DNA from: Panorpa germanica
Lineage: Eukaryota; Arthropoda; Insecta; Mecoptera; Panorpidae
Assembly: GCA_963678705.1 (NCBI GenBank)
Contig: OY783208.1
Location: 6,200,001-6,264,000 of the forward strand
Length of the DNA: 64,000 nucleotides
Reading direction: 5' to 3'
Shown here: positions 4,685-64,000 of the stretch, piece by piece
Numbering within the stretch: position 1 is the first letter of the stretch
Layout of the letters: every line of letters starts with the position of its first letter
Program-made: the position numbers and the translations under genes
The notes under the pieces: generated by a model
Databases searched by the model: none
What the model was told of the DNA's origin: nothing
The model's input: the letters and a program-made list of their open reading frames with translations, nothing else

Positions 4685-5323
4685 CTAAATGTGTATTTTA
4701 TGTCGTTTTAAAGAAGATGATAGACTAAACGTTTTATTACATTCATCGCAGGAAAATGGTTTCAAACCTAAATGTGTGTTTTTATGTTGTTTTAAATGTG
4801 ATGGATATTTAAATATTTTAGTACACTCACTACAAGAATACAAATTCTTTATTGAATGCACCCGCATATGTTTTATAATATCCAACTTGTCTACAAACGA
4901 TTTGTTACATACTTCACAAACAAAATGTTTCAGTCTCGATTTTAATTTTCCACTTTGCAGTTGTTCGTTATTCAGAGGTTCGGCTGGTTTTTCAACTGTG
5001 GACTTCTCATGTCCCCCACAAATAGGTGGTGCATCCAGGTGTTCCTGTAATTTAGTTCCATCCAGGAACATATCATTGCAATAATCAGAGGGCTCATGAC
5101 ACGGCTCAAGTTTAATGAAGTACTGATTGTCCCGTGGTAAAATTGCATTTTCTTCTGGACAGTCTGGTTCTTCCTTAATTTCATCACATGACTCTACATC
5201 TTTGACCACACGTTCTTCCTTTATTTCCATTTTTATATCTTCGTTTATATTTCCTGTTTCCTTTGGTTCATTTAACTCTACGGCAATTTCCAGTTTTATG
5301 TTCTGTGATTTATAATCCTCCAT
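4685..5323 (-). CDS. C2H2 zinc-finger protein, unit 1 (212 aa)
   Basis: Likely nuclear DNA-binding protein of the local MEDYKS family. Residues 1-90 are acidic and carry psi-K-x-E motifs (IKLE, IKEE, IKEE, IKLE). The finger-like piece CNDMFLDGTKLQEHL near residue 83 lacks its first cysteine. Fingers follow: FVCEVCNKSF, YSCSECTKIF and FSCDECNKTF. The last finger ends HKIHI instead of HKNTHLALK, consistent with a single-base loss compared with the copy at 63471, so it may be non-functional. The ATG is shared by all paralogues and lies just after an intron-acceptor-like TTTCAG. The 5' flank is of type I, shared with the gene at 58218. The IKEEPD.P motif has Cys where most paralogues have Ser. 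DNA target and function are unknown. Confidence 0.75.
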   Translation of the reverse strand: MEDYKSQNIKLEIAVELNEPKETGNINEDIKMEIKEERVVKDVESCDEIKEEPDCPEENAILPRDNQYFIKLEPCHEPSDYCNDMFLDGTKLQEHLDAPPICGGHEKSTVEKPAEPLNNEQLQSGKLKSRLKHFVCEVCNKSFVDKLDIIKHMRVHSIKNLYSCSECTKIFKYPSHLKQHKNTHLGLKPFSCDECNKTFSLSSSLKRHKIHI

Positions 5324-6509
5324 TTTATTACAACAGTTTTATCGTTCTCTGAAACTAATTAACAATTTATTACTATTCGAAGTAAATAGGAGCAACCTGT
5401 TAATAGAAAATTTAAAATATAAATGATTGATAAACAAAATCATTCGACGGAAGATTCGACATTGATAAATAAATGAAGTTAGGTTGAATTAATTTAAACC
5501 TTTGTTGTAATAAATTGTTATATTATAAAATGCATAGAAAATAAATAAACCTAAAGTAGAAAGCAAGGTGCTAGCTATTCGAATACTGTTGTTGTTTGTC
5601 ATTTGTTAAAAATTTGCCCATTCTTAATTAACATATTTTGATCAGTACTGTTAAAATAGGTATAAATCAATTTCAACAAAAGAAGCATTAATTATGAAAA
5701 AGTTAAAATACCTTTATATAACTAAAAAAATTAATTATTCTTGGTTATCCGCTTCAGTTGCTTTTTACAAATTATTAACTAAGTGAGAAACAATAAAATA
5801 CATTAATTTGTAGTCATCTAGCTCAACCTTTTCAATGATCTGTCAAAAGGAATATTCCAGTGTCTATTTTATAGATAAGTTACTAGATGTACAAATATTT
5901 TGGCGCGTTTTTTAAAATAAATCTACAACGAAGAAATGATTCCTAGTTTAATAACTCGATAATAAAGGCAAAGGGTGTGCTGATGGCGTAGGGTTAGATA
6001 TTTTATGGACAACAATTTTTTAGTAAAACATTTTAATAAATATTTGATTAAATCCAAATGCATTTATACATCCTAATACCCTATACATATTCTTATTTTT
6101 TCATATTCATGTACACAATATGTATATTTAGTATTTATATTTAAGTATGATTGCTTTCTGGAAATCAAATTATATTTTTCTTCTCTCTTTTTTATGATTA
6201 ATTTTTTTAATTTTTGATTGTAATATAGATTGTATTTATACTGTTGCTTCAGTACAATGAAACAAATCGGACAAGTACTTACGATTAGTACCGGTTGTTT
6301 TAATAGCTATAAAACGATACTCTAGATAGAATCAGCTATCAGGACCTTAAGTATCCAATTATATTTTAATGACTTAAAGAGATAATAACAATGGGCTTTT
6401 GAACCCAATTTTTTCGGGTTGCTTTTCTCATTTTTGATTGAAATGTAGGTTATTATATTTACATCTGCCTTAATATTAATAGAGATCTGACTTGTCGCTG
6501 TTTTGTTTT
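5324..6509 (-). promoter_or_regulatory. Type I upstream region of ZNF unit 1
   Basis: This upstream flank matches 58803-59690, with the same CCGCTTCAGTTGC block and TTTTCAATGATCTGTCAAAA. It resembles the type II flank of the other units only in short blocks, such as the TCAATGA..CTGTCAAAA motif. It probably holds the intron, non-coding exon 1 and promoter. No open frame is supported. From about 6250 to 6510 the sequence is no longer shared with the 59 kb copy. Confidence 0.4.
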
Positions 6510-7384
6510 TGAATAATGTAAATGAAATACAGATGTGACATCCCTGATTGCGAAAAATACAAAATATCTTTACAATTAATATTATGCTAATTAATTATAC
6601 TTACACTTCGATACACTGTTAATTCATTCAATGTTTATTCTATACACTTAGTTTAGTCTGTGCTATACACTGTAAAATTGATAATTCATTATTATACAAA
6701 ATGCTTAGTTTAAAAATTTTTTTTAAATAGATTCAATTTGCATGAAAACGCATTAATTTCTTCTTAACGAAAATTGAAACTAGAAACATAAATGACAACA
6801 CATTTTCGAGTTAAAAAAGGCAACTATTTTATTGTTTGTTTTTCTTTAAATATAGTTTGAAGTTAATGTAAAGAAGTGAAATTATTCGATACAGCAACAC
6901 TAGAAAAGTTTAAAGGAAGAGTTGGAGAAGAATAAGACAATCCCGGAGAACTAGGCGGGCTTTAATAAAGGAAGTCAACGATGGATAACATATACATCCT
7001 AGATTATAAACACAGAAAGAATCGGCAAGACAAGGAGGTAAAGTATTGTTACCAGTTTGCGAACGTGTGAACATAGGAAAATTGCAATTGGGAATTATTG
7101 AGCAGAAATGGTCACTCCGATTGTACTTCGGCTAAATGTAAACATAAGAGAAACTCGAAAACATGTCATAGATAAAACTCATAATAACTTTTGTACAACT
7201 CATTGCGCGATCCTTAGAAATAATAATACCGACCTACTGAGGACTACGTCATAGAAGAAGCGCGGCGATTCATCTAGAATTAAGTATGCGTCATGCTATA
7301 AGGAAATAAATAAAATGATTCTAGGCAGTTACCTACTCCTGGAAATAATTACGTCGTTAGAATATTCTGGAAACAATTCGCTAG
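6510..7384. repeat. Duplicated non-coding segment preceding P relic 1
   Basis: Collinear with 27887-28781 at high similarity, including AAGGAAGTC(A/G)ACGATGG and TACTTCGGCTAAATG. No gene is recognised. It belongs to the block A/B duplication. Confidence 0.6.
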
Positions 7385-8930: not shown

Positions 8931-9414
8931 CTTCATAATATAAGGGAAGGGAAATAAGGGAATTTCAAATATATTGATTCAAATTGAATTTGCTAAAGAT
9001 AAAATCATCAAAGTAATACTAGTAATTGAGAGGAATCGCATTAAAACAAGTAATTGGAATAAAACCGCGTACTGAAGTCCTGCGGATTAGACAGACATTT
9101 TTATGAATTTACATGATTTTCTTTTTCATTACAAAAGCAGATTTCAATTCATCTACACTAGTTCGGAAAATTTCTCTAAAATAAAGAAAACTAAAAAAGA
9201 AGCAAATTCTTATTCACTTGTCTACCAATAATTAAGAAATATGAAAGGCTGAGTCTAGTATTCATTTAATACACTGTTAAATCTTCCCGTAAATATTTTA
9301 CACATTGTTAATCAAAAATTGATTTCAAGAATAGGTTTATTACAAATTCATGAGTAAGACATATTTATTAAACTTGTGCATAAGATTTATGACATAAATC
9401 ACGAGAATATTATT
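8931..9414. repeat. Duplicated AT-rich segment
   Basis: Non-coding and homologous to 30950-31390, including AAAACCGCGTACTGAAGTCC and TTTTTCATTACAAAAGCAG. No gene is seen. The paralogous block contains about 0.65 kb more sequence at its left end (30303-30949). Confidence 0.5.
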
Positions 9415-9508
9415 TTAAAGGTAAATGTGTGTTTTTATGTTGTTTTAAAAGTGATGGGCATGTAAATGTTTTGTATTTTGCATTTTAGTACACTCATTAG
9501 AAGAATAA
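9415..9508 (-). pseudogene. ZNF relic: remains of one finger
   Basis: Minus-strand sequence matches the finger and tail of the family: SNECTK, then H-K-N-T-H-L, then the terminal K and stop. It occupies the place of the intact gene 31398-32132 in block B. Left of the finger it is followed by the usual 3' flank; right of it the gene is replaced by an unrelated dispersed repeat (from about 9520). The reading frame also contains a small insertion or shift near TTTGTATTTTGCATTTTAG. This is a truncated dead copy. Confidence 0.6.
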
Positions 9509-11007: not shown

Positions 11008-11742
11008 TTATGTTATAGCTAAATGTGTGTTTTTATGTCGTTTTAAATTTGATAACTGACTAAACGTTTTATTACATTCCTGGCAAGAGAAAGGTTTTAT
11101 AGCTAAATGTGTGTTTTTATGTCTTTTTAAATGTGATGATTGACTAAACGATTTATTACATTCGTTGCAAGAGAATGGTTTTAAAGCTAAATGTGTGTTT
11201 TTATGTACTTTTAAATGTGATGGATATTGAAACGTCTTCGTACACTCAGTACAAGAATACAAATTCTTTGTTGAATGCACCCGCATATGTTTTATAATAT
11301 CCACCTTGTCTACAAACGATTTGTTACATACATCACAAATAAAATGTTTCAGCTTCGATTTTAATTTTCCACTTTGCAGATGTTCGCTATTTAGAGGTTC
11401 TGCTGGTTTTGTAACCGTGGACTTCTCATGACCCCCACAAATAGGTGGTGCATCCAGGTGTTCCTGTAATTTAGTTCCATCCAGGAACATATCATTGCAA
11501 TAATCAGAGGGCTCATGACACGGCTCAAGTTTAATGAAGTACTGATTGTCCCGTGGTGAAATTGCATTTTCTTCTGGACTGTCTGGTTCTTCCTTAATTT
11601 CATCACATGACTCTACATCTTTGACCACGCGTTCTTCCTTTATATCTATTTTTATATCTTCGTTTATATTTCCTGTTTCCATTGGTTCATTTGAGTCTAC
11701 GTCAATTTCCAGTTTTATGTTCTGTGATTTATAATCCTCCAT
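11008..11742 (-). CDS. C2H2 zinc-finger protein, unit 2 (244 aa)
   Basis: Likely nuclear DNA-binding protein. The acidic N-terminus (residues 1-90) has IKLE, IKEE, IKEEPDSP and IKLE motifs. IKEEPDSP fits the phosphorylation-dependent SUMO consensus psi-K-x-E-x-x-S-P. A degenerate finger (CNDMF..HL) is followed by four complete C2H2 fingers: CDVCNKSF, CTECTKTF, CNECNKSF and CQECNKTF, ending HKNTH. Linkers are of L(A/G)(L/I)KPF type. The frame is intact from the family ATG to a stop just after the last linker. The inferred intron runs from about 12132 (GTAAAAT) to an acceptor TTTCAG at about 11765, so the CDS is one exon. The target is unknown. Confidence 0.82.
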   Translation of the reverse strand: MEDYKSQNIKLEIDVDSNEPMETGNINEDIKIDIKEERVVKDVESCDEIKEEPDSPEENAISPRDNQYFIKLEPCHEPSDYCNDMFLDGTKLQEHLDAPPICGGHEKSTVTKPAEPLNSEHLQSGKLKSKLKHFICDVCNKSFVDKVDIIKHMRVHSTKNLYSCTECTKTFQYPSHLKVHKNTHLALKPFSCNECNKSFSQSSHLKRHKNTHLAIKPFSCQECNKTFSQLSNLKRHKNTHLAIT

Positions 11743-12598
11743 TTTTTTACAGTTTTATCGTTTTCTGAAACTAATTAACAATTTATTACTATTCTAAGTA
11801 AATAGGGGCACCCTGTCGGAAAAACTTTAAATATAAGTGATTTAATAACAAAATCATTTCATAGCAATATTGTTGAATAAATGAGGTTAAGTTGAATTTA
11901 TGTAAAGCCTTTAATAAATCTGAAGTAAATTAATTTATTGTAAACGCAAAGAAAATAAATAAATCTAAAGTGAAAACCAACGTTCAAACCATTGGAATAA
12001 AGTTGTAGATGAATTATGTAATTAACAGTTTTTGTTCATTAACGTTAAAATGAGAGTAAAGCAAGAGCCCTATTTTTTTAATAATTAATTGATAAATAAG
12101 TTAATAAACGTATATTTTCGTTTTTATTTTACCTTTAGATAGCCTGGTAACACAATATTTTCTGATAAAATGCAATAATTTGTAGTGCTGTTGTTTAACC
12201 GTTTCAATGAACTGTCAAAATGAATATTTTTTTATTTGTCGTCTTCTTATATGCATTTAAGGAGGTACCGTCAATGCAAAAAGTTTATCTCTTGGTAAAT
12301 CGAATTACGATATAAACGATGAACAAATATTGAGACTGTACCTTTGAAAGTGAAAGGTTTAATTCCTTATTAAATAGCTTCTAACTTATTAAAATAATTT
12401 TTTTATGCATATAATAGTATAATAAATAAAATATTAACTATAATTAATGTGAAATTTATTTTAATTCAATTCAAATTCAAATTACATATCTGTAAAAAAG
12501 TAATAATAAATTTGTCAACGTTGTCATAATAAGTGTATGATTTATTAATTCTTGGAGTTAAATTTAATTTTCATTAGAATTGTTTATGCAGTTTAACT
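11743..12598 (-). promoter_or_regulatory. Type II upstream region, intron and exon 1 of ZNF unit 2
   Basis: Shared with the flanks at 1-540, 17959-18605, 32133-32840 and 37890-38515. On the minus strand the block CAGGCTATCTAAAG/GTAAAAT (about 12131-12150) looks like exon 1 ending at a 5' splice site, with the acceptor TTTCAG at 11765-11770. The transcription start would lie right of about 12140. Evidence is limited to conservation and the splice-like motifs. Confidence 0.4.
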
Positions 12599-12599
12599 T

Positions 12600-17307: not shown

Positions 17308-17958
17308 TTATTTTAAACCTAAATGTGTGTTTTTATGTAGTTTTAAATTTGATAACTGACTAAACGATTTATTACATTCGTTGCAAGAAAATGGTTTTAC
17401 AACTAAATGTGTGTTTTTATGTTGCTTTAAAAATGATGGATATTTAAACGTTTTAGTACACTCATTACAAGAATACAAATTCTTTGTTGAATGCACCCGC
17501 ATATGTTTTATAATATCCACCTTGTCTACAAACGATTTGTTACATTCTTCACAAATAAAATGTTTCAGCTTCGATTTTAATTTTCCACTTTGCAGTTGTT
17601 CGTTATTCAGAGGTTCGGCTGGTTTTTCAACTGTGGACTTCTCATGTCCCCCACAACTAGGTGGTGCATCTAGGTGTTCCTGTAATTTAGTTCCATCCAG
17701 GAACATATCATTGCAATAATCAGAGAGCTCATAACACGGCTCAAGTTTAATGAAGTATTGATTGTATAGTGTTAAAATGGCATTTTCTTCTGGACTGTCT
17801 ATTTCTTCCTTAATTTCATCACATGACACTACATCTTTGACCACACGTTCTTCCTTTATATCTATTTTTATCTCTTCGTTTAAATTTCCTGTTTCCATTG
17901 GTTCATTTAACTCTAGATCAATTTTAAGTTTTATGTTCTGTGATTTATAATCCTCCAT
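17308..17958 (-). CDS. C2H2 zinc-finger protein, unit 3 (216 aa)
   Basis: Intact frame from the family ATG. The N-terminus has IKLK (first motif altered from IKLE), IKEE, IKEEIDSP and IKLE. The IKEEIDSP motif still fits psi-K-x-E-x-x-S-P. The degenerate finger piece CNDMF precedes three C2H2 fingers: FICEECNKSF, YSCNECTKTFKYPSFL and FSCNECNKSFSQLSNL, ending HKNTHLGLK. Three fingers is short for this family; neighbours have up to six or more. An acceptor-like motif (TTTGTTTCAG) precedes the ATG. It is collinear with the gene at 63471 in the second large duplication pair. Presumably a nuclear DNA-binding protein; function unknown. Confidence 0.8.
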   Translation of the reverse strand: MEDYKSQNIKLKIDLELNEPMETGNLNEEIKIDIKEERVVKDVVSCDEIKEEIDSPEENAILTLYNQYFIKLEPCYELSDYCNDMFLDGTKLQEHLDAPPSCGGHEKSTVEKPAEPLNNEQLQSGKLKSKLKHFICEECNKSFVDKVDIIKHMRVHSTKNLYSCNECTKTFKYPSFLKQHKNTHLVVKPFSCNECNKSFSQLSNLKLHKNTHLGLK

Positions 17959-18605
17959 TTTTTTACAGTTTTATCCTTTTCTGAAACAAATTAACAATTT
18001 ATTACTATTCGAAGTAAAAAATTTTCCCTGTCGGAAAAACTTTAAATATAAGTGATTTAATAACAAAATCATTTCATAGCAATATTGTTGAATAATCAGG
18101 TTTAGTTGAACTTATGTAAAGCCTTTAATAAACGCAAAGAAAATAAATAAATCTAAAGTGAAAAGCAACGTTCAAACCATTGGAATAAAGTTGAAATTTA
18201 ATTAATTAATAAACAGTTTTTGTTCATTAACGTTAAAATGAGAGTAAAGTAAGCCCTATTTTGTAAATAATTAATTGATATATGAGTTAATAAACGTATA
18301 TTTTCGTTTTTATTTTACCTTTAGATAGCCTGGTAACACAATATTTTCAGATAAAATACAATAATTTGTAGTGCTATTGTTTAATCGTTTCAATGAACTG
18401 TCAAAATGAATAATTCAGTTGTGGACTTATGAAATACATTTAAGGAGGTACCGTCAATGCAAAAAGTTTATCTCTCGGTAATACGAATTACGAAATAAAC
18501 GACGAGCAAATATTGAGACTGTACCTTTGAAAATGAAAGTTTCAGTTCCCTATTGAATAGCTTCTGGCCTGTTAAAATTATTTTTTATTCATATAATAGT
18601 ATAGT
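17959..18605 (-). promoter_or_regulatory. Type II upstream region of ZNF unit 3
   Basis: Matches the type II flanks of the other units, including the TAACACAATATTTTCAGATAAAA block. It is interrupted at 18605 by the Copia element. The interrupted sequence resumes at 22893, as shown by the uninterrupted paralogue at about 395-420. Confidence 0.45.
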
Positions 18606-18814
18606 TGTTATATTTAGCAGAGATAAACTATTAATTTATATTAATCAGGTTTATTATTTAATTAAAATGTACACATGTGTTATGGAGTCACAGAGTATAG
18701 AATTACATAGTAGGACGGTATTACAGAGTATAGTATTAACTACAGTATTACCGAGTGTAGAAAGAAAGATATAATAGTGTCAATACCGAGAGGGCGCTAA
18801 ATTTAAATCCAACA
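18606..18814 (-). repeat. Copia-1 left LTR (3' LTR)
   Basis: TG..CA-bounded direct repeat of 22678-22892. As the element reads on the minus strand, this is its 3' LTR. Confidence 0.9.
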
Positions 18815-21800
18815 CTCCCTCTAAATTTAGACATTCTAACAACAAATTATGATTAATTGAGTGTCAAAAAAAACATGAAAATATTAATCAAGTTATACTA
18901 CAAGATATTCTAACATATCACTTAACAAAAGAGTTGTAGTTAAACATACCAAGTTTAGATCTTAAGAATTGGAATTTATCTTTTGACAATGCTTTAGTTA
19001 ATATATCAGCATATTGATCAGCAGTGCTTACAGATTTAAGATCTATAATCTTTTGAGAATATTTTTCTTTTATGAAGTGATACTTAATATCAATATGTTT
19101 ACATCTTTTATGAAAATTTATATTTATATTAATTACACTGATGGCACTTTGATTGTCCAAATGTAAACACATAGTGTCTTGTTTATATTCACCAATATCA
19201 CTTAACACTTGCTTTATCCACATAGCTTCTTTTGTTGCAGCACAGGCGGCCATAAATTCAGCTTCTGTTGTTGACAGAGCAACCGTCTGTTGGCGTTGGC
19301 TTGACCATGTTACAGCAGCACCATTCTTTATGAAGACGTAGCCAGTAACTGAGCGTCTTGTATCAATATCGTTTGCATAATCAGCATCACTATAACCAGT
19401 AACAGCTGGTGGCTCTGATGTTGATGAGTAGTTCAGGCCATAATCTTTAGTATCCTTCAGGTACTTGAAGATCTTCGTGACAGCATTCCAGTGTGATTTG
19501 TTATAGCAACTTAAAAATCGACTTACCAGGCTTACGGCAAACATAATTTCTGGTCGACTGACTGTAGCCAGATGCATAAGAGAACCTACAGCTTCTCTAT
19601 AAGGATAGTTTTTCTCTGGTTCTCCATCTTCCTTTTGTAGCTTGACATGGGGGTCCACTGGAACAGTGTTTGGGTTAGCGTCAGTCATGTTAAACTTCTC
19701 TAACAGTTGTTCCACATACTTGGTCTGATGTATAAAAATACCGTTGCTAAATATCTCAATTTGCATGCTGCTTTCACAGGATAGACCTTCAGGCGGAGAC
19801 ATAAATATGGTCTCTTCAAGTTCACCATATAAGAATGCAGTTTTTACATCAAGTTGTAAGATTTTAAGTTTATTTTGAACAGCCATGGAAAGTAATAAAC
19901 GTATTGAATCATACCTTACAGTCGGAGCGAAGGTTTCTGTGTAGTCAATACCTGCGGTTTGTGCAAATCCCTTAGCACAAAGTCTTGATTTGAACCGTGG
20001 ACCCGTTGACTCTTCTTTTATTCGGAACACCCATTTACTACCGATCACTTTGGCATTTGGAGGTTTTTCTATCAATGTCCAGGTTTCATTTTTCTTATGT
20101 GCATCAAGTTCTTCATTGATTGACTTTATCCATTCATTTTTATTTGTTGAATGTACTGCTTCTTCATATGTTTCAGGAACACAGGATGAGAATAAACACA
20201 GATGAGTATGTCCTTCAGTACATGGACAGTTGAAATTCTTATTTTTTCTTTTATTTCTAGGTCTCAATGTTACATTACTGACGGGAGGAGAATCAATTCT
20301 GGTGTTAGGTAAGTATTCACTGTCGGATGTTGACCTGTTTCCTTTCTCTGTTTCATATGAACTTTCTGAATTTGTGTCGTTGTCAATCAAGCTGTCCTCT
20401 TCCGTTGTTGCATTTTCTCTTACATCTTCTTTTCTTGTATTTGTTTTGTCATTTTCAGTTTCTGTCTCATTCAATTCTACCGAAACAGAATCTCTTTTCA
20501 CTGAGGATTCAAGAAATGTAGCATCTCTGCTCTTTATTACCTTTCTAGTATTTGGTAATGTGAATCTGTATCCTTTTGTATTGTCGCAGTATCCGATGAA
20601 GATCATTCTTTGAGCCTTTGGATCCCATTTTCTGCGTTTTTCTTTAGGTAGATGAACCATTGCTTCGCAGCCAAATATACGCATATGATTAACATTTGGT
20701 TTGCGTCCAGACCAGATTTCCATAGGAGTCTTGAAAGCTAAGGATTTGGTTGGGGAACGATTGATGATGTAAGCAGCAGTGTGTATTGCATCTGCCCAAT
20801 ACAACTTCGGCAGACCAGCGTTGAGTAGCATGCGCTTCGCTTTTTCAACCAGTGTCCGATTCATACGTTCCGCAGTCCCATTCTGTTCAGGCGTGTATGG
20901 TGTGGTGGTCTGATGAATGATTCCGGCACCTTTCAGGTAATCAGAGAAGGCTTTGTTATCGTATTCAAGTCCGTTGTCTGTACGAAGAACCTTTATACGA
21001 GCATCCAATTGATTTTCAACTTCTTGCTTGAATTCTTTGAATTTACTGAGCACTTCAGACTTGTTGTGAAGAAAGTATACTGAAATCTTCTTGGAATATT
21101 CATCTAGGAAGGTTAAAAAATATTTGCTCCCACCGAGAGACTGGGTTTCCATTGGTCCACATACGTCAGAATGAACCAGTTCTAGGTGTTTGGTGACTCT
21201 TAATCCATCACTTTTAAAAGGTAACCGTGTCTGCTTTCCTTCTTTACAAGTTATGCATTTCAGATTTTTTGTATTTCCTGAGAAAGTTAAATGCTCTGTG
21301 TTATCAGACAATTTTTTCAAAGCTTGGAAATTAAGAGTTCCCATCCTCTGGTGCCAGCAAAAAGCATCTTTTTCATGTTCAACACTAGACATGTGCGCAA
21401 GGCTTCCAGGCATGTTCAGTCGGTACATGTTGTTTACAATGCTCGCAGTTGCTATAATTTGATTCTTGCTGTTCATGATCACACAGCCTGAGGTATCAAA
21501 TTTCACTTGGCCTCCATTTTTAATAATTTGGCTTACAGATATCAGATTAGTTGCCAATTCAGGAACATATAAGACATTTGTGAACAGAATCTTATTCTCT
21601 TGTCCGTTTTGGTCATAAATGTTTAAGCTGACATCTCCTGAGCTTTGCACAGATAACACTTTGTTATCAGCAACACGAATGTTCTTTGTTTTAGGGGTAG
21701 TTTCCTTTACAATTATATTCTTGGTCTTAGTCATATGTGCCGAAGCACCGGAGTCTATGTACCAAGCATCATCATAGTGGGATGATATAACAAACACAGC

Positions 21801-22677
21801 AGCATAAGAAGAGCTAGGTTTCTGAGTCTTGTTCATGAGTTTGTATTTGTTGCATTCAGAGCGTTTATGTCCATATCGATTGCAGGAATAACATCTCGGA
21901 CCCTTGTAGAACTTCTTGTTTACAGAGTTGTTATGAAACTTCTTGTTGACAGCAAAAGCCGTTGTTTTGTTGTCTGAATTTCTAACATCTTGCAATAGTT
22001 TTGCTTTAACACTGTCTGCAGTTATTTTTGTGCCTGAGCTTTCGATCGCAATAATCATTGGTTGATATGATTCGGGCAGACCGGAGAGCAGCAATGTCCC
22101 GAGCCACTCGTCGTCCACTTTAAAGCCAATGTTGCGCAGCTTGTGAGCAGTTGACATAATTTTGCTCACATACTCTTCTATACTTTGACATCCACTTAAC
22201 GATGTGTTACATAAATCACGTAGCAGACCAACTCGGCGTGTAAGTCCTGAGTCGTCGAACACTGCAGCCAATTTGTCCCAAACTCCTTTGGCCGTGTTTT
22301 CCTCTTGGATATGAACGTAATTGATCGGATCAACCAGAAGAATTAACTTTGTTTTCGCTTTTGTATCACGTTTTGAGTCTGTGGGTGACGCCGGGTTAAC
22401 CTCAATACAATCCCATAATTCTTCGTGTTGTAGGTATGTTTTCACTGCGAATTGCCAAGTCGAATAATTTTCACGACCGGTTAACTTCTCGATTAATGCC
22501 AGTGAATTATTCGATGCCATTTTTATTCGTTGAGAACACTTTAAACACAAAAAAGAACAGAAACAGTTTCAACAGCCACGTTTTTTTTTTAAGGTTATGT
22601 TCACCACACTAAAGTCTTTATCCACTTTTCCGAAAAACACTCACTAAACGTCTCTAGGTTTATCTGGGCCGATAACC

Positions 22678-22892
22678 TGTTATATTTAGCAGAGATAAAC
22701 TATTAATTTATATTAATCAGGTTTATTATATTTAATTAGATGTACACATGAGTTATGATGTCACTGAGTATAGAATTACATAGTAGGACGGTATTACAGA
22801 GTATAGTATTAACTCGGTAACAGTATTACCGAGTGTAGAAAGAAAGATATAATAGTGTCAATACCGAGAGGGCGCTAAATTTAAATCCAACA
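22678..22892 (-). repeat. Copia-1 right LTR (5' LTR)
   Basis: Direct repeat of 18606-18814. The primer-binding-site region lies immediately to its left. Confidence 0.9.
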
Positions 22893-32845: not shown

Positions 32846-32847
32846 AA

Positions 32848-40264: not shown

Positions 40265-40566
40265 CGTGTCTCTGGTCGATATAGCTCTCTCTGGCACTGA
40301 TAAAGGCGCTGCATGAATGTTCGCGTTGAACAAATTCGCTATTTCTTAATACTAAAAAATATACAGTACTTTTCTAAAATTATTACATATATTAGGAATA
40401 TTTATAAAAAATGTACTGCATTCCTAAGAAGTAAAACATATTTCAAGGACACAACGATATCCCTAGACCCAATGTATTTAAGATGGCGGGTACTGAAATA
40501 CCTACTTTGCTTTTGACAGTTCTATCATAAGTACAAGTAAAACACTACGGCTATTTGTTTATTACT
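40265..40566 (+). promoter_or_regulatory. Promoter and non-coding exon 1 of the 41405 ZNF gene
   Basis: A strong 5' splice site (ACT/GTAAGTAA) at 40566-40567 and an acceptor (TTTGTTTTTAG) at 41381-41382 suggest an 816-bp intron in the 5' UTR. An inverted copy of this segment lies at 56130-56640. The transcription start was not located. Confidence 0.45.
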
Positions 40567-41382
40567 GTAAGTAATATTTCACGAAAAGAAACTGCAGTGG
40601 ACATTCGAATAATATAGTGTGTTAATTAATATACAAAGGTATTTTTAATTGTATTTTATTATAGATTTAATGATAATTATTTAGTTCAGCTTTATTAAAT
40701 GTTTTGAAACTTGTAAAAAGACAATTGCACTTTATGTTTTATGGAGCTTGTTCTGTACTCAAAACATGTACTTTAACATTACAAAACATTACTTAATAGT
40801 CATTATACCAATTTCAATTAAAAAATAGACTTTTAGATTTAAAGGTGAAATTTATAATATGAGGTTAGAAATAATACGACGTTGTTCCACATAAATGACA
40901 TCTATTTTACATTCATTAGTCAACTTTTATTATGAATATTCTCTATTTCTTAATTTATAGTGGTATAATGATTATTACGTAATCATTTGTACGTCTCTTG
41001 ACTATATTAAAAGGACATTAAACGTACAAAAGGGCAATAGTTCATTTAAAACTTTCAAAACAAAAAATGTAGCCTAACTAAATAAAGGCCGATTTAATTA
41101 ATTACTTCATTTTCTTAATTATAATGGATACAAACGGCAGTTAATTCCATACAAACTAATTATTAACAACATCATTGAAATTGCTGAAATCATGCTATAA
41201 CATTATCACTAATCACATTTATTTATTTTTGTTATGTTTTACAAAGGAATAATTCCTTATAATACAGTTTTACATTAAATTAACTTAATCTTACTTAGTT
41301 TTCTTAATTATGTCACGCGGTTTCTTTCGACTTTAAGATTATACTCTTTATGGTGGTAATAAATTGATTTCTTTGTTTTTAG
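40567..41382 (+). other. Inferred 5' UTR intron
   Basis: GTAAGT..TTTTTAG boundaries, AT-rich interior, no gene. Confidence 0.4.
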
Positions 41383-48780: not shown

Positions 48781-48992
48781 GATATTTCAACTTTAACCGT
48801 TAATATTGTTCTACGGTTACATTCGTTACAAGAGAATGGTTTCACACCTAAATGTGTGGTCTCATGTTGTTTTAAGGCGGATGGGTATTCAAACATTTTA
48901 TTACATTCATTACAAGGAAATAAATTTAAACCTAAATGTGTATATTTATGTATATTTAATTGTGACGATCGACTAAACGTCTTATTACATTT

Positions 48993-49202
48993 TGTTATAT
49001 TTAGCAGAGATAAACTATTAATTTATATTAATCAGGTTTATTATATTTAATTAGATGTACACATGCGTTATGATGTCACAGAGTATAGAATACATAGTAG
49101 AACGGTATTACAGAGTATAGTATTACCTACAGTATTACCGTGTGTAAAAAGAAAAGATAGAATAGTGTCAATCCCTAGAGGGCGCTAAATTTAAATCCAA
49201 CA
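48993..49202 (-). repeat. Copia-2 left LTR (3' LTR)
   Basis: TG..CA-bounded direct repeat of 53327-53536. Confidence 0.9.
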
Positions 49203-49304
49203 CTCCCTCTAAATTTAGACATTCTAACAACAAATTATAATTAATTGAGTGTCAAAAAAACATGAAAATATTAATCAAGTTATACTACAAGATATTCTAA
49301 CATA

Positions 49305-52300
49305 TCACTTAACAAAAGAGTTGTAGTTAAACATACCAAGTTTAGATCTTAAGAATTGGAATTTATCTTTTGACAATGCTTTAGTTAATATATCTGCATA
49401 TTGATCAGCAGTGCTTACAGATTTAAGATCTATAATCTTTTGAGAATATTTTTCTTTTATGAAGTGATACTTAATATCAATATGTTTACATCTTTTATGA
49501 AAATTTATATTCTTAATTACACTGATGGCACTTTGATTGTCCAAATGTAAACACATAGTGTCTTGTTTATATTCACCAATATCACTTAACACTTGCTTTA
49601 TCCACATAGCTTCTTTTGTTGCAGCACAGGCGGCCATAAATTCAGCTTCTGTTGTTGACAGAGCAACCGTCTGTTGGCTTGACCATGTTACAGCAGCACC
49701 ATTCTTTATGAAGACGTAGCCAGTAACTGAGCGTCTTGTATCAATATCGTTTGCATAATCAGCATCACTATAACCAGTAACAGCTGGTGGCTCTGATGTT
49801 GATGAGTAGTTCAGGCCATAATCTTTAGTATCCTTCAGGTACTTGAAGATCTTCGTGACAGGATTCCAGTGTGATTTGTTATAGCAACTTAAAAATCGAC
49901 TTACCAGGCTTACGGCAAACATAATTTCTGGTCGACTGACTGTAGCCAGATGCATAAGAGAACCTACAGCTTCTCTATAAGGATAGTTTTTCTCTGGTTC
50001 GCCATCTTCCTTTTGTAGCTTGACATGGGGGTCCACTGGAACAGTGTTCGGGTTAGCATCAGTCATGTTAAACTTCTCTAACAGTTGTTCAACATACTTG
50101 GTCTGATGTATAAAAATACCGTTGCTAAATATCTCAATTTGCATGCCCACAAAATTACTTGGTGTGTTCAATATTTTTACTTCCAGCACAGATTGTAGTT
50201 CTTTAGTTATTTCTTTCAGAGTGGATTCAGTTTTAGAAAATAGTAGGCCATCATCCACATACAGGCAAAGATAACATTTCTCATTCTTGACATGACCAAC
50301 ATACACACATTGATCAGCTTTGCTGTTGATGAAACCAAATTTCTTTAATATTGAGTCAAATTTCTTATTCCAGCTTCTGGGGGCTTGCTTTAAACCATAC
50401 AGCGACTTGTTGAGCTTGCATTCACAGGATAGACCTTCAGGCGGAGTCATAAATATAGTCTCTTCAAGTTCACCATATAAAAATGCAGTTTTTACATCAA
50501 GTTGTAAGATTTTAAGTTTATTTTGAACAGCCATGGAAAGTAATAAACGTATTGAATCATACCTTACAGTCGGAGCGAAGGTTTCTGTGTAGTCAATACC
50601 TGCGGTTTGTGCAAATCCCTTAGCACAAAGTCTTGATTTGAACCGTGGACCCGTTGACTCTTCCTTTATTCGGAACACCCATTTACTACCGATCACTTTG
50701 GCATTTGGAGGTTTTTCTATCAATGTCCAGGTTTCATTTTTCTTATGAGCATCAAGTTCTTCATTGATTGACTTTATCCATTCATTTTTATTTGTTGAAT
50801 GTACTGCTTCTTCATATGTTACAGGAACACAGGATGAGAATAAACACAGATGAGTATGTTCTTCAGTACATGGACAGTTGAAATTCTTCTTTTTTGTTTT
50901 ATTTCTTGGTCTCAATGTCACGTTACTGACAGAAGGAGAATCAATACTGGTGTTAGGTAAGTATTCACTGTCGGATGTTGACCTGTTTCCTTTCTCTGTC
51001 TCATATGAACTTTCTGAATTTGTGTCGTTGTCAATCAAGCTGTCCTCTTCCGTTGTTGCTTTTTCTCTTACATCTTCTTCTTTTGTATTTGTTTTGTCAT
51101 TTTCAGTGTCTGTCTCATACAATTCTACCGAAACAAAGTCTCGCTTCACTGAGGATTCAAGAAATGTAGCATCTCTGCTCTTTATTACCTTTTTAGTATT
51201 TAATAATGTGAATCTGTATCTTTTTGTATGGTCGCAGTATCCGATGAAGATCATTTTGTGAGCCTTTGGATCCCATTTTCTGCGTTTTTCTTTAGGTAGA
51301 TGAACCATTGCCTCGCAGCTAAATATACGCATATGATTAACATTTGGTTTGCGTCCAGACCACATTTCCATAGGAGTCTTGAAAGCTAAGGATCTGGTTG
51401 GGGAACGATTGATGATGTAAGCAGCAGTGTGTATTGCATCTGCCCAATACAACTTCGGCAGACCAGCGTTGAGTAGCATGCACTTCGCTTTTTCAACCAG
51501 TGTCCGATTCATACGTTCCGCAGTTCCATTCTGTTCAGGCGTGTATGGTGTGGTGGTTTGATGGATGATTCCGGCACCTTTCAGGTAATCAGAGAAGGCT
51601 TTGTTATCGTATTCAAGTCCGTTGTCTGTACGAAGAACCTTTATACGAGCATCCAATTGATTTTCAACTTCTTGCTTGAATTCTTTGAATTTACTGAGCA
51701 CTTCAGATTTGTTGTGAAGAAAGTATACTGAAATCTTCTTGGAATATTCATCTAGGAAGGTTAAAAAATATCTGCTCCCACCGAGAGACTGGGTTTCCAT
51801 TGGTCCACATACGTCAGAATGAACCAATTCTAGGGGTTTGGTGACTCTTAATCCATCACTTTTAAAAGGTAACCGTGTCTGCTTTCCTTCTTTACAAGTT
51901 ATGCATTTCCGATTTTCTGTTTTTCCTGAGAAAGTTAAATGCTCTGTGTTATCAGACAATTTTTTCAAAGTTTGGAAATTAAGATGTCCCATCCTCTGGT
52001 GCCAGCAAAAAGCATCTTGTTCATGTTCAACACTGGACATGTGCGCTAGGCTTTCAGGCATGTTCAGTCGGTACATGTTATTTACAATGCTCGCAGTTGC
52101 TATAATTTGATTCTTGCTGTTCATGATCACACAGCCTGAGGTATCAAATTTCACCTGGCCTCCATTTTTAATAATTTGGCTTACAGATATCAGATTAGTT
52201 GCCAATTCAGGAACATATAAGACATTTGTGAACAGAATCTTATTCTCTTGTCCGTTTTGGTCATAAATGTTTAAGCTGACATCTCCTGAGCTTTGCACAG

Positions 52301-53168
52301 ATAACACTTTGTTATCAGCAACACGAATGTTCTTTGTTATAGGGGTAGTTTCCTTTACAATTATATTCTTGGTCTTAGTCATATGTGCCGAAGCACCGGA
52401 GTCTATGTACCAAGCATCACCATAGTGGGATGATGCAACAAACACAGCAGCATAAGAAGAGCTAGGTTTCTGTGTCTTGTTCATGGTTTTGTATTTGTTG
52501 CATTCAGAGCGTTTATGTCCATATTGATTGCAGGAATAACATCTCGGACCCTTGTAGAACTTCTTGTTTACAGAGTTGTTATGAAACTTCTTGTTGACAG
52601 CAAAAGCCGTTGTTTTGTTGTCTGAATTTCTAACATCTTGCAATAGTTTTGCTTTAATACCGTCTGCAGTTATTTTTGTGCCTGAGCTTTCGATCGCAAT
52701 AATCATTGGTTGATATGATTCGGGCAGACCGGAGAGCAGCAATGTCCCGAGCCACTCGTCGTCCACTTTAAAGCCAATGTTGCGCAGCTTGTGAGCAGTT
52801 GACATAATTTTGCTCACATACTCTTCTATACTTTGACATCCACTGAGCGATGTGTTACATAAATCACATAGCAGACCAACTCGGCGTGTAAGTCCTGAGT
52901 CATCAAACGCTGCAGCCAATTTGTCCCAAACTCCTTTGGCCGTGTTTTCCTCTTGGATATGAACGTAATTGATCGGATCAACCAGAAGAATTAACTTTGT
53001 TTTCGCTTTTGTATCACGTTTTGAATCTGCGGGTGACGCCGGATTACCCTCAATACAATCCCATAATTCTTCGTGTTGTAGGTATGTTTTCACTGTGAAT
53101 TGCCCAGTCGAATAGTTTTCACGGCCGGTTAACTTCTCGATTAATGCCAGTGAATTATTCGATGCCAT
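49305..53168 (-). CDS. Copia gag-pol polyprotein (1287 aa)
   Basis: Retrotransposon polyprotein, read from MASNNSLALIEKLTG. An upstream in-frame TTG extension is not used. Approximate domains: gag 1-230 with zinc knuckle CYSCNQYGHKRSEC at 208-222; aspartic protease WYIDSGASAH near 255; GAG-pre-integrase with HQRMGHLNF and CITCKEGK near 390-435; integrase core with HSD, RTDNG and PEQNGTAER near 445-555; reverse transcriptase with FAPTVRYDSIR, LDVKTAFLYG and YVDD near 850-975; RNase H with YSDADYAND, TTEAEF and LDNQSA near 1130-1230. All are typical Ty1/Copia signatures in the Copia order (IN before RT). Length is normal for the family. It looks whole as a fossil; whether it is transcribed is unknown. 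Confidence 0.92.
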   Translation of the reverse strand: MASNNSLALIEKLTGRENYSTGQFTVKTYLQHEELWDCIEGNPASPADSKRDTKAKTKLILLVDPINYVHIQEENTAKGVWDKLAAAFDDSGLTRRVGLLCDLCNTSLSGCQSIEEYVSKIMSTAHKLRNIGFKVDDEWLGTLLLSGLPESYQPMIIAIESSGTKITADGIKAKLLQDVRNSDNKTTAFAVNKKFHNNSVNKKFYKGPRCYSCNQYGHKRSECNKYKTMNKTQKPSSSYAAVFVASSHYGDAWYIDSGASAHMTKTKNIIVKETTPITKNIRVADNKVLSVQSSGDVSLNIYDQNGQENKILFTNVLYVPELATNLISVSQIIKNGGQVKFDTSGCVIMNSKNQIIATASIVNNMYRLNMPESLAHMSSVEHEQDAFCWHQRMGHLNFQTLKKLSDNTEHLTFSGKTENRKCITCKEGKQTRLPFKSDGLRVTKPLELVHSDVCGPMETQSLGGSRYFLTFLDEYSKKISVYFLHNKSEVLSKFKEFKQEVENQLDARIKVLRTDNGLEYDNKAFSDYLKGAGIIHQTTTPYTPEQNGTAERMNRTLVEKAKCMLLNAGLPKLYWADAIHTAAYIINRSPTRSLAFKTPMEMWSGRKPNVNHMRIFSCEAMVHLPKEKRRKWDPKAHKMIFIGYCDHTKRYRFTLLNTKKVIKSRDATFLESSVKRDFVSVELYETDTENDKTNTKEEDVREKATTEEDSLIDNDTNSESSYETEKGNRSTSDSEYLPNTSIDSPSVSNVTLRPRNKTKKKNFNCPCTEEHTHLCLFSSCVPVTYEEAVHSTNKNEWIKSINEELDAHKKNETWTLIEKPPNAKVIGSKWVFRIKEESTGPRFKSRLCAKGFAQTAGIDYTETFAPTVRYDSIRLLLSMAVQNKLKILQLDVKTAFLYGELEETIFMTPPEGLSCECKLNKSLYGLKQAPRSWNKKFDSILKKFGFINSKADQCVYVGHVKNEKCYLCLYVDDGLLFSKTESTLKEITKELQSVLEVKILNTPSNFVGMQIEIFSNGIFIHQTKYVEQLLEKFNMTDANPNTVPVDPHVKLQKEDGEPEKNYPYREAVGSLMHLATVSRPEIMFAVSLVSRFLSCYNKSHWNPVTKIFKYLKDTKDYGLNYSSTSEPPAVTGYSDADYANDIDTRRSVTGYVFIKNGAAVTWSSQQTVALSTTEAEFMAACAATKEAMWIKQVLSDIGEYKQDTMCLHLDNQSAISVIKNINFHKRCKHIDIKYHFIKEKYSQKIIDLKSVSTADQYADILTKALSKDKFQFLRSKLGMFNYNSFVK

Positions 53169-53326
53169 TTTTATTCGTTGAGAACACTTTATACACAAAA
53201 AAGAACAGAAACAGTTTCAACAGCCACGTTTTTTTTTTAAGGTTATGTTCACCACACTAAAAGTCTTTATCCACTTTTCCGAAAAACACACATTAAACGT
53301 CTCTAGGTTTATCTGGGCCCATAACC

Positions 53327-53536
53327 TGTTATATTTAGCATAGATAAACTATTAATTTATATTAATCAGGTTTATTATATTTAATTAGATGTACACATGC
53401 GTTATGATGTCACAGAGTATAGAATACATAGTAGGACGGTATTACCTGGTATAGTATTACCTACAGTATTACCGTGTGTAAAAAGAAAAGATAGAATAGT
53501 GTCAATCCCTAGAGGGCGCTAAATTTAAATCCAACA
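53327..53536 (-). repeat. Copia-2 right LTR (5' LTR)
   Basis: Direct repeat of 48993-49202, with the primer-binding site on its left. Confidence 0.9.
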
Positions 53537-53856
53537 CATTTAAAGCAAGAAAATGGTTTTAGGTCTAAATGCGTGTATTTATGTTGTTTTAGATAAGATA
53601 ATCGACTAAATGTTTTATTACATTTATCGCAAGAAAATGGTTTTAAACCTGAATGTGTCTCTTCATCTAAAACTGCAGCATCCTCTGAACCATCGTCTGG
53701 TCTTCTTTAATTTCTATTTTTATTTCATCACATAACACTGCTCCTTTGTCGTCTTGTTCTTTTGTTCTTTTAGATGTCAAATCTTCGTTTACATTTGCTG
53801 TTTCAATTGCTTCATTTCTTTCCAGTTTTATTTGGTTTGAACTGTAATCCTCCATT

Positions 53857-57252: not shown

Positions 57253-57254
57253 CA

Positions 57255-58217: not shown

Positions 58218-58802
58218 TCATTCGTTGCAACAAAATGGCTTCAAACCTAAATGTGTGTTTTTATGTCGTTTTAAATTTGATGATAGACTAAACGTTTTAG
58301 CACACTCATTACAAGAATACAAATTCTTTGTTGAATGCACCCGCATATGTTTTATAATATCCACCTTGTCTACAAACGATTTGTTACATACATCACAAAT
58401 AAAATGTTTCAGCTTCGATTTTAATTTTCCACTTTGCAGTTGTTCATTAATCAGAGGTTCGGCTAGTTTTTCAACTGTGGACTTCTCATGTCCCCTACAA
58501 CTAGGTGGTGCATCAAGGTGTTTCTGTAATTTAGTTCCATCCAGGAACATATCTTTGCAATAATCAGAGGGCTCATGACAGGGTTCAAGTTTAATGAAGT
58601 ACTGATTGTCCCGTGGTAAAATTGCATTTTCTTCTGGACTGTCTGGTTCTTTCTTAATTTCATCACATGACTCTATATCTTTGACCACGCGTTCTTCCTT
58701 TATTTCCATTTTTATATCTTCGTTTATATTTCCTTTTTCCATTGGTTCATTTAACTCTACGTCAATTTCCAGTTTTATGTTCTGTGATTTATAATCCTCC
58801 AT
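58218..58802 (-). CDS. C2H2 zinc-finger protein, unit 7, cut short (194 aa)
   Basis: Family N-terminus with IKLE, IKEE, IKKEPDSP and IKLE. A degenerate CKDMF piece precedes two complete fingers, FICDVCNKSF and YSCNECAKTFSLSSNLKRH. The third finger stops at FCCNE: the codon for its second cysteine is TGA where paralogues have TGT (58218-58220). The frame beyond (NKTFSHSSNLKRHKNTHLALK) remains open, so the stop is a single recent change. Two fingers may be too few for specific DNA binding, so the product is doubtful. The upstream region is type I, as for unit 1. Confidence 0.65.
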   Translation of the reverse strand: MEDYKSQNIKLEIDVELNEPMEKGNINEDIKMEIKEERVVKDIESCDEIKKEPDSPEENAILPRDNQYFIKLEPCHEPSDYCKDMFLDGTKLQKHLDAPPSCRGHEKSTVEKLAEPLINEQLQSGKLKSKLKHFICDVCNKSFVDKVDIIKHMRVHSTKNLYSCNECAKTFSLSSNLKRHKNTHLGLKPFCCNE

Positions 58803-59714
58803 TTTATTACTACAGTTTTATCCTTCTCTGAAACTAATTGGCAATTTATTGGCTATTCGAAGTAAATAGGGGCAACCTGTCTATAGAAAATTTATAATAT
58901 AAATGATTGAAAAACAAAACCATTCGATTGAAGCATTGGTAAATAAATGAGGTTATGTTGAATTAATGTAAAACGTTTGTTGTAATAAATTGTTATTTTA
59001 TAAAATGCATACAAAATAAATAAACCTAAAGTAAAAAGCAAGGTACTAGGAATAATGTTGTAAAAAATTTGCCCATTCACAAGTTTTTGATCAGTGCCGT
59101 TAAAATAGGTATAAATCAATTTCAACAAAAGAAGCAATAAATTATGAAAAAGTTAAAATACCTTTATATAACTAAAAAAAAAGATTATTCTTTGTTATCC
59201 GCTTCAGTTGCTTTTTACAAATTATTAACTAAGTGAGAAACAATAAAATACATAAATTTGTAGCGATCTTGCTCAACCTTTTCAATGATCTGTCAAAATG
59301 AATATTTCAGGGTCTATTTCATAGATTAGATACTAGAAGTACAAATATTTTGGCGCGTTTTTTTAAATAAATGTATAACTTAGAAATGATTCCTAGTTTA
59401 ATAACTCGATAAAAGAGGCTAAGGGATGTGATGATGACGTAGTGATAAATTTTAAGAACAACTTCTTTTTAGAAAAACGTTTTTAAAAAATATTTTATTC
59501 ATTCCTAATCCATTTATACATCCTAATACCCTATTGATATTCTTATTTTCTCATATTCATGTACACAATATGTATCTTTAGTATTCAAATTTAAATATAA
59601 TTGCTTTCCGGAAAACAATATATATCTTTCTTCTCTCATTTTTATGATTTATTTTTTAATTTTTGATTGTAATAATAGATTGTATGTAAGTTGTTATTTC
59701 TCTTTACGTAAGTA
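58803..59714 (-). promoter_or_regulatory. Type I upstream region of ZNF unit 7
   Basis: Matches 5324-6240 upstream of unit 1, including the CCGCTTCAGTTGC block and the TTTTCAATGATCTGTCAAAATG block. Probable intron, exon 1 and promoter. No gene. Confidence 0.4.
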
Positions 59715-62215: not shown

Positions 62216-62961
62216 TGCTTTATTGCCCAGTGATTTGAAGAATTCATTCCAATTCATTAATTGTTCTTAATTTAATATAAAGTGTATATCATTATATCAT
62301 TCCCTGTATCCGTTTTAATATTAAATTTTAGGTTTAGGCGTCCTTTTAGAATCCAGCAACAACCCAGCTTTCAAACTTAAAGAACTAAAATATTATCCAT
62401 CGTTATAACGTACGTACAAATGTAACTTACAATTTGTCACAATCTCTACTTTCTCTATTCTACTTAATGGATTCTACTTATGAATTTACAACGTTATCAG
62501 TGGTGTCAAACAATTCTTATCAAGGGTTCTCAATGTGATACAGATTTTTAACTTAGCTTTACTCCGTCTCTTGTATAGGTGATCTGCAACGTCCTTCGAT
62601 ACTCTGACTAGTGCTCTGGTCCATGGGGCTGATCTAGTCGGTCTGTAAAGGCAGAGACAAGGTCTAGGCTAACAGGAAACACTTGGTTTAAAGTTTAATA
62701 ATTATTTATTCACGTCAGAATTTCGGTTTACAGAAATTTAAATCTGAACACTGTTTTAACTAAAAATCTAACATGTCTTAGTTCTAAAACCGCAACGCGC
62801 ATAAGTCCTAGTAACGAAAATGGACTTAGACACGAGATGAGGCAACAGAACAGACTGATTTTAATTCGAATAAACCAGAAGGGTTTAGCTGATAGGGCCC
62901 CACCCCTTTTAAAATAACATCATCCGCGTTCTTTGTTCAAAACAATGCGGAATCAGCATTA
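62216..62961. repeat. Duplicated non-coding segment
   Basis: Paralogue of 16061-16797. No gene. Confidence 0.45.
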
Positions 62962-63470
62962 TTAGGATGGTCGATCATATTGAATTTGTATCTCACTTAC
63001 TCTGCTAGTTTCTAATAGGTTCGTTTTAAATCTAAACAACGGATATTCTTAATTACTTTAGTTTTATTACTTAAATACAATAGGGCCTTATACTATGGTC
63101 TTAATACTAAAAGGAAATGCTTATTCTAAGATTCTTAATACAATAGGTCCAATTATTGGAACAATTTTTTAAACAAATTGGATACGCTTAAAAATTTATT
63201 AATTTCTTCATAGTGAGAATTGAACCTAGGAACATAAGAGGCATCTACATATTTCAACATAAATCGTGGAATGTGGTAGAAAAAGTTGCTTACAAATTCA
63301 TGAGTTCGTCATATTTATTAAACACACGCCATAAAGTAAAACTCCAGCGAATACAAACAGTTTAGATCACATACAGAACACACCTAGACAGTTTTATTTA
63401 AATGAGTTTTTTGATTTCGCTTTAAGGAACCAACTTGTGCGTAAGATTTATGACATAAATTATAAGAATA
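62962..63470. repeat. 3' flank of ZNF unit 8
   Basis: Copy of the unit flank, collinear with 16798-17307. Confidence 0.6.
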
Positions 63471-64000
63471 TTATTTTAAAGCTAAATGTGTGTTTTTATG
63501 TCGTTTTAAAGAAGATGATAGACTAAACGTTTTATTACATTCATCGCACGAAAATGGTTTCAAACCTAAATGTGTGTTTTTATGTCGTTTTAAATGTGAT
63601 GAGCGACCATACGATTTATTACATTTATCGCAAGAAAATGGGTTTACGAGTAAATGTGTGTTTTTATGTACTTTTAAATTTGATGAAAAACTAAATGTTT
63701 TATTACATTCATCGCAGGAAAATGGTTTCAAATCTAAATGTGTGTTTCTATGTACTTTTAAATATGATAACTGACTAAACGTTTTATTACATTTGTTGCA
63801 AGAAAATGGATTTAAACCTAAATGTGTGTTTTTATGTACTTTTAAATGTGATAACTGACTAAACGTTTTATTACATTCGTCACAAGAAAATGGTTTTAAA
63901 GCTAAATGTGTGTTTTTATGTACTTCTAAATGAGATGATCGACTAAACGTTTTATTACATTCGTCACAAGAAAATGGTTTCAAACCTAAATGTGTGTTTT
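63471..64000 (-). CDS. C2H2 zinc-finger protein, unit 8, partial at window edge
   Basis: The C-terminal part of a family member whose start lies beyond the right edge; the frame runs unbroken to base 64000. Six complete fingers are visible (TFSRSSHLEV, TFSQLSHLKV, TFSQLSYLKV, TFSFSSNLKV, SYGRSSHLKR, TFSLSSSLKR), joined by HL(A/G)LKPF-type linkers, two with LNP or VNP instead of LKP. The array is longer than that of its duplication partner at 17308 (three fingers), showing finger gain or loss after the duplication. The last finger is nearly identical to the last finger of unit 1, but here it is intact (HKNTHLALK, stop). Confidence 0.8.
   Translation of the reverse strand, partial: NTHLGLKPFSCDECNKTFSRSSHLEVHKNTHLALKPFSCDECNKTFSQLSHLKVHKNTHLGLNPFSCNKCNKTFSQLSYLKVHRNTHLDLKPFSCDECNKTFSFSSNLKVHKNTHLLVNPFSCDKCNKSYGRSSHLKRHKNTHLGLKPFSCDECNKTFSLSSSLKRHKNTHLALK

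Follow-up and report, generated by a model that had tools for sequence, protein, structure and literature searches.

A birth-and-death cluster of C2H2 zinc-finger genes extends through the window analysed here, which is the whole stretch of 64,000 nucleotides (64 kb, G+C about 30%) at positions 6,200,001 to 6,264,000 of contig OY783208.1 of Panorpa germanica. The cluster is best explained as a C2H2 family, young and restricted to its lineage, whose members multiply through multi-kilobase duplication and exchange sequence with one another. The coding exon combines a conserved acidic N-terminus carrying SUMO-type motifs with fingers that vary at their DNA-contacting positions. The chances are roughly balanced that the encoded proteins would act as sequence-specific repressors using SUMO-dependent silencing.

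The loci (Table 1) are arranged in minus, plus and minus blocks, an order that the sequence-only reading had described and that the strands of the loci bear out. The first minus block contains m5323, the relic m9472, m11742, m17958, m32132 and m37889, the plus block p41405 and p44878, and the second minus block m53855 and m48992 (two parts of a single gene interrupted by a Copia element), m58802 and m63998. The nine loci that have the N-terminus in common, together with one array truncated at the window edge (m63998) and one relic (m9472), agree with the earlier estimate of at least 11 related loci, relics included. The mixture of intact, broken, transposon-split and single-finger copies was also rightly recognised, as frames are intact in m11742, m17958, m32132 and p41405 (4, 3, 4 and 10 tandem fingers, respectively), and the others include frameshifts or stops, the Copia-split m53855/m48992 and m9472. 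The start of the cluster at 4685, in turn, has to be revised. The cluster reaches the first base of the window, where positions 1-559 represent the 5' flank of an extra copy beyond the left edge (87% identity to the m11742 5' flank at 12016-12584). Six loci, all on the minus strand, form type A (m5323, m11742, m17958, m32132, m37889 and m58802), and p44878 (plus) and m53855 (minus) form sub-B. The N-terminus was earlier said to be common to all members except sub-B and the edge members; the sharing stands, but the exclusion of sub-B does not, because the first 55-60 or so residues are common (E 1.3e-15 for p44878 and 3e-8 for m53855, both against p41405). The zinc-finger family PF00096 was matched in all six proteins scanned, in p41405 with E 3.3e-55 over 11 stretches.

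The N-terminal tail and its SUMO-type motifs

The nine N-terminal loci start with MEDYKS or MENYKS (MEDYSS in m53855), followed by IKLE. The N-terminus comprises about 130 residues, lies on the same exon and in the same open frame as the fingers, and is acidic, with a net charge of -7 to -18. KRAB, ZAD and BTB (presumably PF01352, PF07776 and PF00651) had no match in any of the nine N-termini at E up to 10, although HMMER filtering discards the majority of matches with E beyond about 0.1; this accords with the earlier remark that neither KRAB nor ZAD is visible. Seven other families matched one N-terminus each, none at the cut-offs shown and partly via the C2HC finger of p41405, and the NCBIfam matches to the N-termini were all weak and lay far under the cut-offs shown. 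No confirmed relative was found for p41405, the N-terminal profile and the Copia open reading frame (ORF) among viral contigs, or for the N-terminal profile among prokaryotic genome contigs, searches that say little on insects. Annotated beetle C2H2 proteins often have similar I-K-x-E-P-rich N-termini, and therefore the family may already be present in databases under generic names. In the structural model of p41405, residues 1-80 and 108-137 have a predicted local distance difference test score (pLDDT) below 50, one finger lies at about 83-104, and ten finger helices follow. The model, based on a seven-sequence alignment and with a mean pLDDT of 57.8, is a rough guide, and it predicts that the N-terminus of p41405 is disordered over residues 1-80.

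The SUMO-acceptor-type motif psi-K-x-E occurs two to five times in each N-terminus, against 0.20-0.62 in 2000 shuffles of each sequence (P <= 0.0165 in every one of the nine). The extended form psi-K-x-E-x-x-S-P, which we take to be the phosphorylation-dependent SUMO motif, is present in five of the six A copies and absent from p41405, p44878 and m53855. The motifs are also better kept than their surroundings. In five pairings of p41405 with an A copy, identity extends to 14-15 of the 16 motif residues and to 58-61 of the other 111 (P 0.001-0.009); with the motifs of m11742 as the reference, P is 0.013.

Between p41405 and five A copies, synonymous divergence (dS) is 0.76-0.89 and non-synonymous divergence (dN) 0.28-0.30, and the ratio of non-synonymous to synonymous differences per site (pN/pS) is 0.46-0.51, with bootstrap upper limits <= 0.69. 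Three comparisons involving p44878 gave pN/pS of 0.49-0.61 and upper limits of 0.70-0.85. Judged by these between-clade ratios and their bootstrap limits, the protein was under purifying constraint over longer time spans (pN/pS about 0.5).

Fingers and gene structure

The strict pattern C-x2-C-x12-H-x3-H with the seven following residues recovered 40 fingers in 11 stretches; outside it remain the last fingers of m11742, m17958 and p41405, fingers with missing ligands, and the distinct family located at 15.2 and 61.4 kb. Eight first fingers were dropped, which left 32 array fingers whose ligands are fixed by the pattern. Over the 28 positions of these fingers, entropy is highest at the contact positions +3 (2.96 bits), -1 (2.78) and +6 (1.97) of the helix, and these being the top three of the 24 pattern-free positions has P of about 0.0005 if positions are exchangeable. 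Helix position +1 reaches 1.68 bits, and Lys and Leu of the scaffold do not vary at all. Within finger 2, compared among five A copies, the four contact codons carry six non-synonymous changes, all at +3 and +6, against six in the other 17 codons (P 0.015); m58802, whose finger 2 looks like another finger, is omitted from this test. The contact residues include Thr at +3 and Val at +6, which are poorly covered by recognition codes. The linkers resemble Leu-x-Leu-Lys-Pro, with Leu first in 30 of the 32 array fingers, and TGEKP occurs in none of the 40.

A splice-acceptor-like site lies 18-25 nt 5' of the ATG in all nine N-terminal loci, and an in-frame stop occurs within 45 nt upstream of the ATG in eight of them (the exception being m53855). 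The group-1 5' flanks all contain a conserved block ending in the donor AAAG|GTAAAA (5/5), whose first 56-58 nt are 84% conserved in both lineage-2 flanks. Taken together, these features suggest that each gene consists of a non-coding first exon and a single coding exon.

Duplication, exchange and neighbouring sequences

Another copy of at least 100 bp exists inside the window for 77.5% of its length. The conserved first-exon block occurs five times against 0.00 expected in shuffles, and full-length type A N-termini match each other with E of 4e-75 to 2e-81; therefore a chance origin of the similarity is not at issue. Type A has two 5'-flank lineages, m5323 and m58802 on one side and m11742, m17958, m32132 and m37889 on the other. 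Across the two lineages (eight pairs), upstream divergence is 21-27%, with 6-9 indels, over the first 300 nt, and a further 300 nt beyond these fail to align (42-45% mismatch). In contrast, the N-terminal coding sequence of these pairs is free of indels and differs by 3.3-8.8%, and divergence over 400 nt 3' of the array is 2.1-8.1% (six of the eight pairs; m32132, whose 3' flank differs, is excluded). Mean divergence is 17.0% upstream and 5.3% in the N-terminus (15 pairs) and 4.8% downstream (10 pairs), and the pooled synonymous and non-synonymous divergence of all 15 A pairs is 7.4% and 4.7%. Selection on the protein cannot equalise synonymous sites and the 3' flank, and transfer can, so we infer that the coding exon and 3' end were moved between the 5'-flank lineages by gene conversion or unequal exchange. 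A reading of strong constraint from the flanks (23.9% upstream against 5.3% coding) was dropped in favour of such exchange, because the 3' flank is as similar as the coding sequence and synonymous divergence is also low.

Finger number varies among the copies. Just 3' of the array, a degenerate finger (C-N-L-C-H-K-S-Y-A-Q-V...) was seen in all eight A-type ends examined (e.g., 10992, 17292, 36974, 58136 and 63455, minus strand). It sits behind a common stop in seven of them (the exception being m5323) and ends early, after SYAQV, in m9472 and m32132. The A-type arrays probably used to contain at least one more finger. Readthrough of the common terminal TAA into this finger was considered and rejected, as its first His is lost and the idea has no support.

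Table 1. Loci, 5' exon candidates, transposons and a duplication junction, in window positions.
Feature	Position	Strand	Remarks
Candidate non-coding exon 1 and donor, A-type gene with coding exon off the left edge	94..207	-	95.6% to group-1 query; AAAG|GTAAAA
m5323	4685..5323	-	N-terminus and 2 fingers, then loss of frame in finger 3; 5'-flank lineage 2
Conserved 5' block of m5323 (lineage 2)	5793..5848	-	83.9% over 56 nt to group-1 query; TTTTGACAG element
m9472 relic	9374..9472	-	single-finger remnant; 8957-9472 is 92.7% to 30946-31460
m11742	11008..11742	-	intact, 244 aa, 4 fingers
Candidate exon 1 and donor of m11742	12109..12222	-	conserved block
m17958	17308..17958	-	intact, 216 aa, 3 fingers
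Candidate exon 1 and donor of m17958	18295..18408	-	conserved block
Copia element 1	18606..22892	-	long terminal repeats (LTRs) 94.0% alike; located 5' of the m17958 exon-1 block, at a distance of about 200 bp
Paralogous junction without m5323 coding exon and 5' flank (4554-6508 absent)	27889..27892	.	3893-4553 matches 27210-27889; 6509-8937 matches 27892-30304
m32132	31398..32132	-	intact frame, 244 aa, 4 fingers; first His of last finger changed to Tyr
Candidate exon 1 and donor of m32132	32498..32611	-	conserved block
m37889	36990..37889	-	N-terminus, then 2 frameshifts with 5 canonical fingers between
Candidate exon 1 and donor of m37889	38256..38369	-	conserved block
Weak candidate 5' exon of p41405	40511..40582	+	GTAAGT inside; 64.9%, E 0.016, comparable to unrelated chance matches
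p41405	41405..42664	+	intact, 419 aa; N-terminal C2HC finger and 10 tandem fingers
p44878 (sub-B)	44878..46074	+	open 398 aa; several fingers without ligands; last finger cut by stop
Sub-B split gene, 3' part (m48992)	48810..48992	-	2 fingers
Copia element 2	48993..53536	-	LTRs 97.6% alike; 5-bp target-site duplication CATTT on both sides, by eye; splits m53855/m48992
Sub-B split gene, 5' part (m53855)	53537..53855	-	N-terminus, broken frame, 1 finger
m58802	58218..58802	-	N-terminus and 2 fingers; finger 3 interrupted by a stop; 5'-flank lineage 2
Conserved 5' block of m58802 (lineage 2)	59243..59300	-	84.5% over 58 nt to group-1 query; TTTTGACAG element
m63998	63471..64000	-	6 fingers; truncated by the right edge

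The frame break of m53855/m48992, located between the N-terminus and the first finger, predates the Copia insertion. Several other sequences accompany the cluster. A second, different broken C2H2 gene, with the finger CxECxKVFPYVDMLKRHEASH, occurs at 15215-15450 and 61263-61600 (plus strand) and is duplicated with its flank (15210-17438 is 95.0% identical to 61366-63601). A many-copy repeat of up to about 600 bp is found in both orientations (816-1151, 23259-23816, 32842-33405, 39617-40256, 43787-44357, 55366-55969, 56774-57253 and shorter pieces), several of its copies being 5' of zinc-finger genes. A duplicated ORF at 7908-8300 and 29250-29684 (minus strand) has no Pfam match at E 0.01 and resembles what we take to be a transposase fragment. 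The related ORFs at 12578-13096 and 38561-39346 (plus strand), situated 5' of m11742 and m37889, likewise have no Pfam match at E 0.01 and belong to duplicated units (12648-13413 is 94.5% identical to 38513-39274). The Pfam scan of five other ORFs of the window gave zero matches at E up to 0.01. A full-length match to U6 small nuclear RNA (104.4 bits) lies at 47215-47320 (plus strand), with TATATATA 23-30 nt upstream. By eye, a G replaces the first A of what we take to be the ACAGAGA box, and the match may be a variant or a pseudogene. Together with the Copia elements and the multi-finger C2H2 genes, it marks the DNA as eukaryotic. A tRNA search of the window with bacterial settings found none.

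Proposed function, alternatives and related families

In the proposed mechanism, the coding exon of the intact genes would provide an N-terminus that is disordered and acidic and carries several SUMO-acceptor-type motifs, followed by 3 to 10 fingers. The variable fingers would choose the DNA site, and the N-terminus, once SUMOylated, would recruit SUMO-reading co-repressors and the target would be repressed. We infer the expression, SUMOylation and repression of the family members from these features. Transposons as targets are a speculative idea, which we consider less likely than not. SUMOylation of the fly protein Bonus is important for its silencing and for its interaction with SetDB1 (PMC10672805).

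Several observations weigh against the reading of the family as SUMO-dependent repressors, or limit it. The psi-K-x-E motif is short, and its counts are not independent, as the copies share ancestry; the five tests of motif conservation likewise go back to a single ancestral comparison, and they leave out IKAE, one of five motifs in p41405, which A lacks and which was treated as a gap. Among the contact positions, +6 is barely above the non-contact residue preceding -1 (1.97 vs 1.93 bits), and +2, mostly Ser, is not variable (0.93 bits). Selection on the N-terminus of the six A copies is not significant (ratio 0.65, P 0.34), with 13 synonymous, 32 non-synonymous and one stop-type change among 46 single-base changes against 8.9, 33.7 and 3.5 expected; the ratio for fingers F1+F2 of the A copies is 1.00 (0.87 without m58802), and only four of nine N-terminal loci have intact frames. 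The extension from Bonus to this family is by analogy, and depletion of Bonus in the fly did not activate transposons (PMC10672805).

The non-significant selection among the A copies leaves room for a decaying cluster, in which one or two genes, p41405 above all, are useful and the A copies are neutral passengers of segmental duplication. The frameshifts or stops of m5323, m37889, m58802, p44878 and m53855 and the high internal duplication of the window fit this explanation, to which we assign a substantial but minority likelihood. However, the acceptor-like sites are retained in all nine loci, and 330 nt of N-terminal coding sequence is free of indels in all 15 A pairs, where the 300 nt upstream carry 2-9. 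The first frameshift of m37889 falls just beyond, directly before the finger region, and m5323 and m58802 break inside that region. Moreover, the scaffold positions are kept while the contact positions vary, the pattern-fixed zinc ligands not being counted. The acidity and the lack of a known domain would also suit an N-terminus that serves transcriptional activation or is a generic acidic tail, its SUMO-type motifs being a by-product of Ile/Lys/Glu-rich composition. We consider this unlikely, although not remote, as the motifs are more numerous than in composition-preserving shuffles, their residues are more conserved than others between clades, and p44878 retains motifs with changed letters (VKDE, FKEE). 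A family of developmental or architectural regulators without a transposon role, which is compatible with SUMO-dependent repression, falls only a little short of an even chance. In Hemiptera, repeat content was not correlated with ZF271-like expansion (PMC6444547), which favours such regulators; nothing specific in the window speaks against them, and the opposing evidence is a general correlation between ZNF and transposon copy number across animals (PMC10547256). The linker Ser/Thr of C2H2 proteins is phosphorylated in mitosis in human cells, which takes the proteins off condensing chromatin (PMC4359306). Since Leu is the usual first linker residue here and TGEKP is missing, it can be imagined, as a distinctly improbable extension, that KRAB-like silencing evolved independently in this family, with the disordered SUMO-acceptor tail taking the place of the KRAB/KAP-1 step, and that linkers lacking the mitotic Ser/Thr let the proteins stay on transposon or satellite targets through division.

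The kind of family is already known from Hemiptera, fish FiNZ and KRAB-ZNF genes, and the SUMO-motif tail together with the Leu-x-Leu-Lys-Pro linkers makes this one a variant. The hemipteran ZF271-like or APEZ genes are described as having tandem clusters (4-8 genes), 3-45 finger repeats, penta-peptide linkers, variable arrays, no KRAB and pseudogenes with disrupted frames (PMC6444547). Compared by description, the genes with 3, 4, 4 and 10 fingers and their broken neighbours are similar, but the hemipteran family is reported without a domain besides its finger arrays, whereas nine loci here have the conserved acidic N-terminus. The cyprinid FiNZ-ZNF family is large and clustered, with variable contact residues and a short Glu-rich sequence at the N-terminus that is conserved but has no known homology (PMC10547256). 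As described, that sequence has 28 residues on its own exon, unlike the approximately 130 residues on the finger exon, with SUMO-type motifs, found here, and exon layout sets the two apart. The sequence-only reading saw the logic of mammalian KRAB-ZNF clusters (described in part in PMC6444547) in the locus, and local duplication, turnover with changes in finger number, variable contact residues, the transposon-rich setting and the conserved acidic N-terminus support it, although no N-terminus matches KRAB. Insect ZAD-ZNF genes are likewise an expanded C2H2 family, with chromatin functions for some members (PMC7655104, PMC9531945), but ZAD is missing from all nine N-termini; BTB-ZNF proteins differ in the same way, and residues 1-80 of p41405 are modelled as disordered. 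Among the matches listed (titles and abstract openings of mostly non-subscription literature, in searches not aimed at the exact combination), none described an expanded insect C2H2 family with either a SUMO-motif N-terminus or Leu-x-Leu-Lys-Pro linkers.

Summarizing, C2H2 families have also expanded rapidly in thrips (PMC7570057), insects are described as lacking KRAB-ZNFs (PMC10672805), and the authors of the Oncopeltus study call for work on what the expanded insect C2H2 families interact with (PMC6444547). The locus presents a coding exon that has stayed similar downstream of two unlike 5' flanks even as its contact residues diverge, and the common N-terminal tail looks suited to switching genes off. 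The conserved SUMO-motif tail is a concrete and cheaply testable candidate for the missing KRAB-type step in insects.

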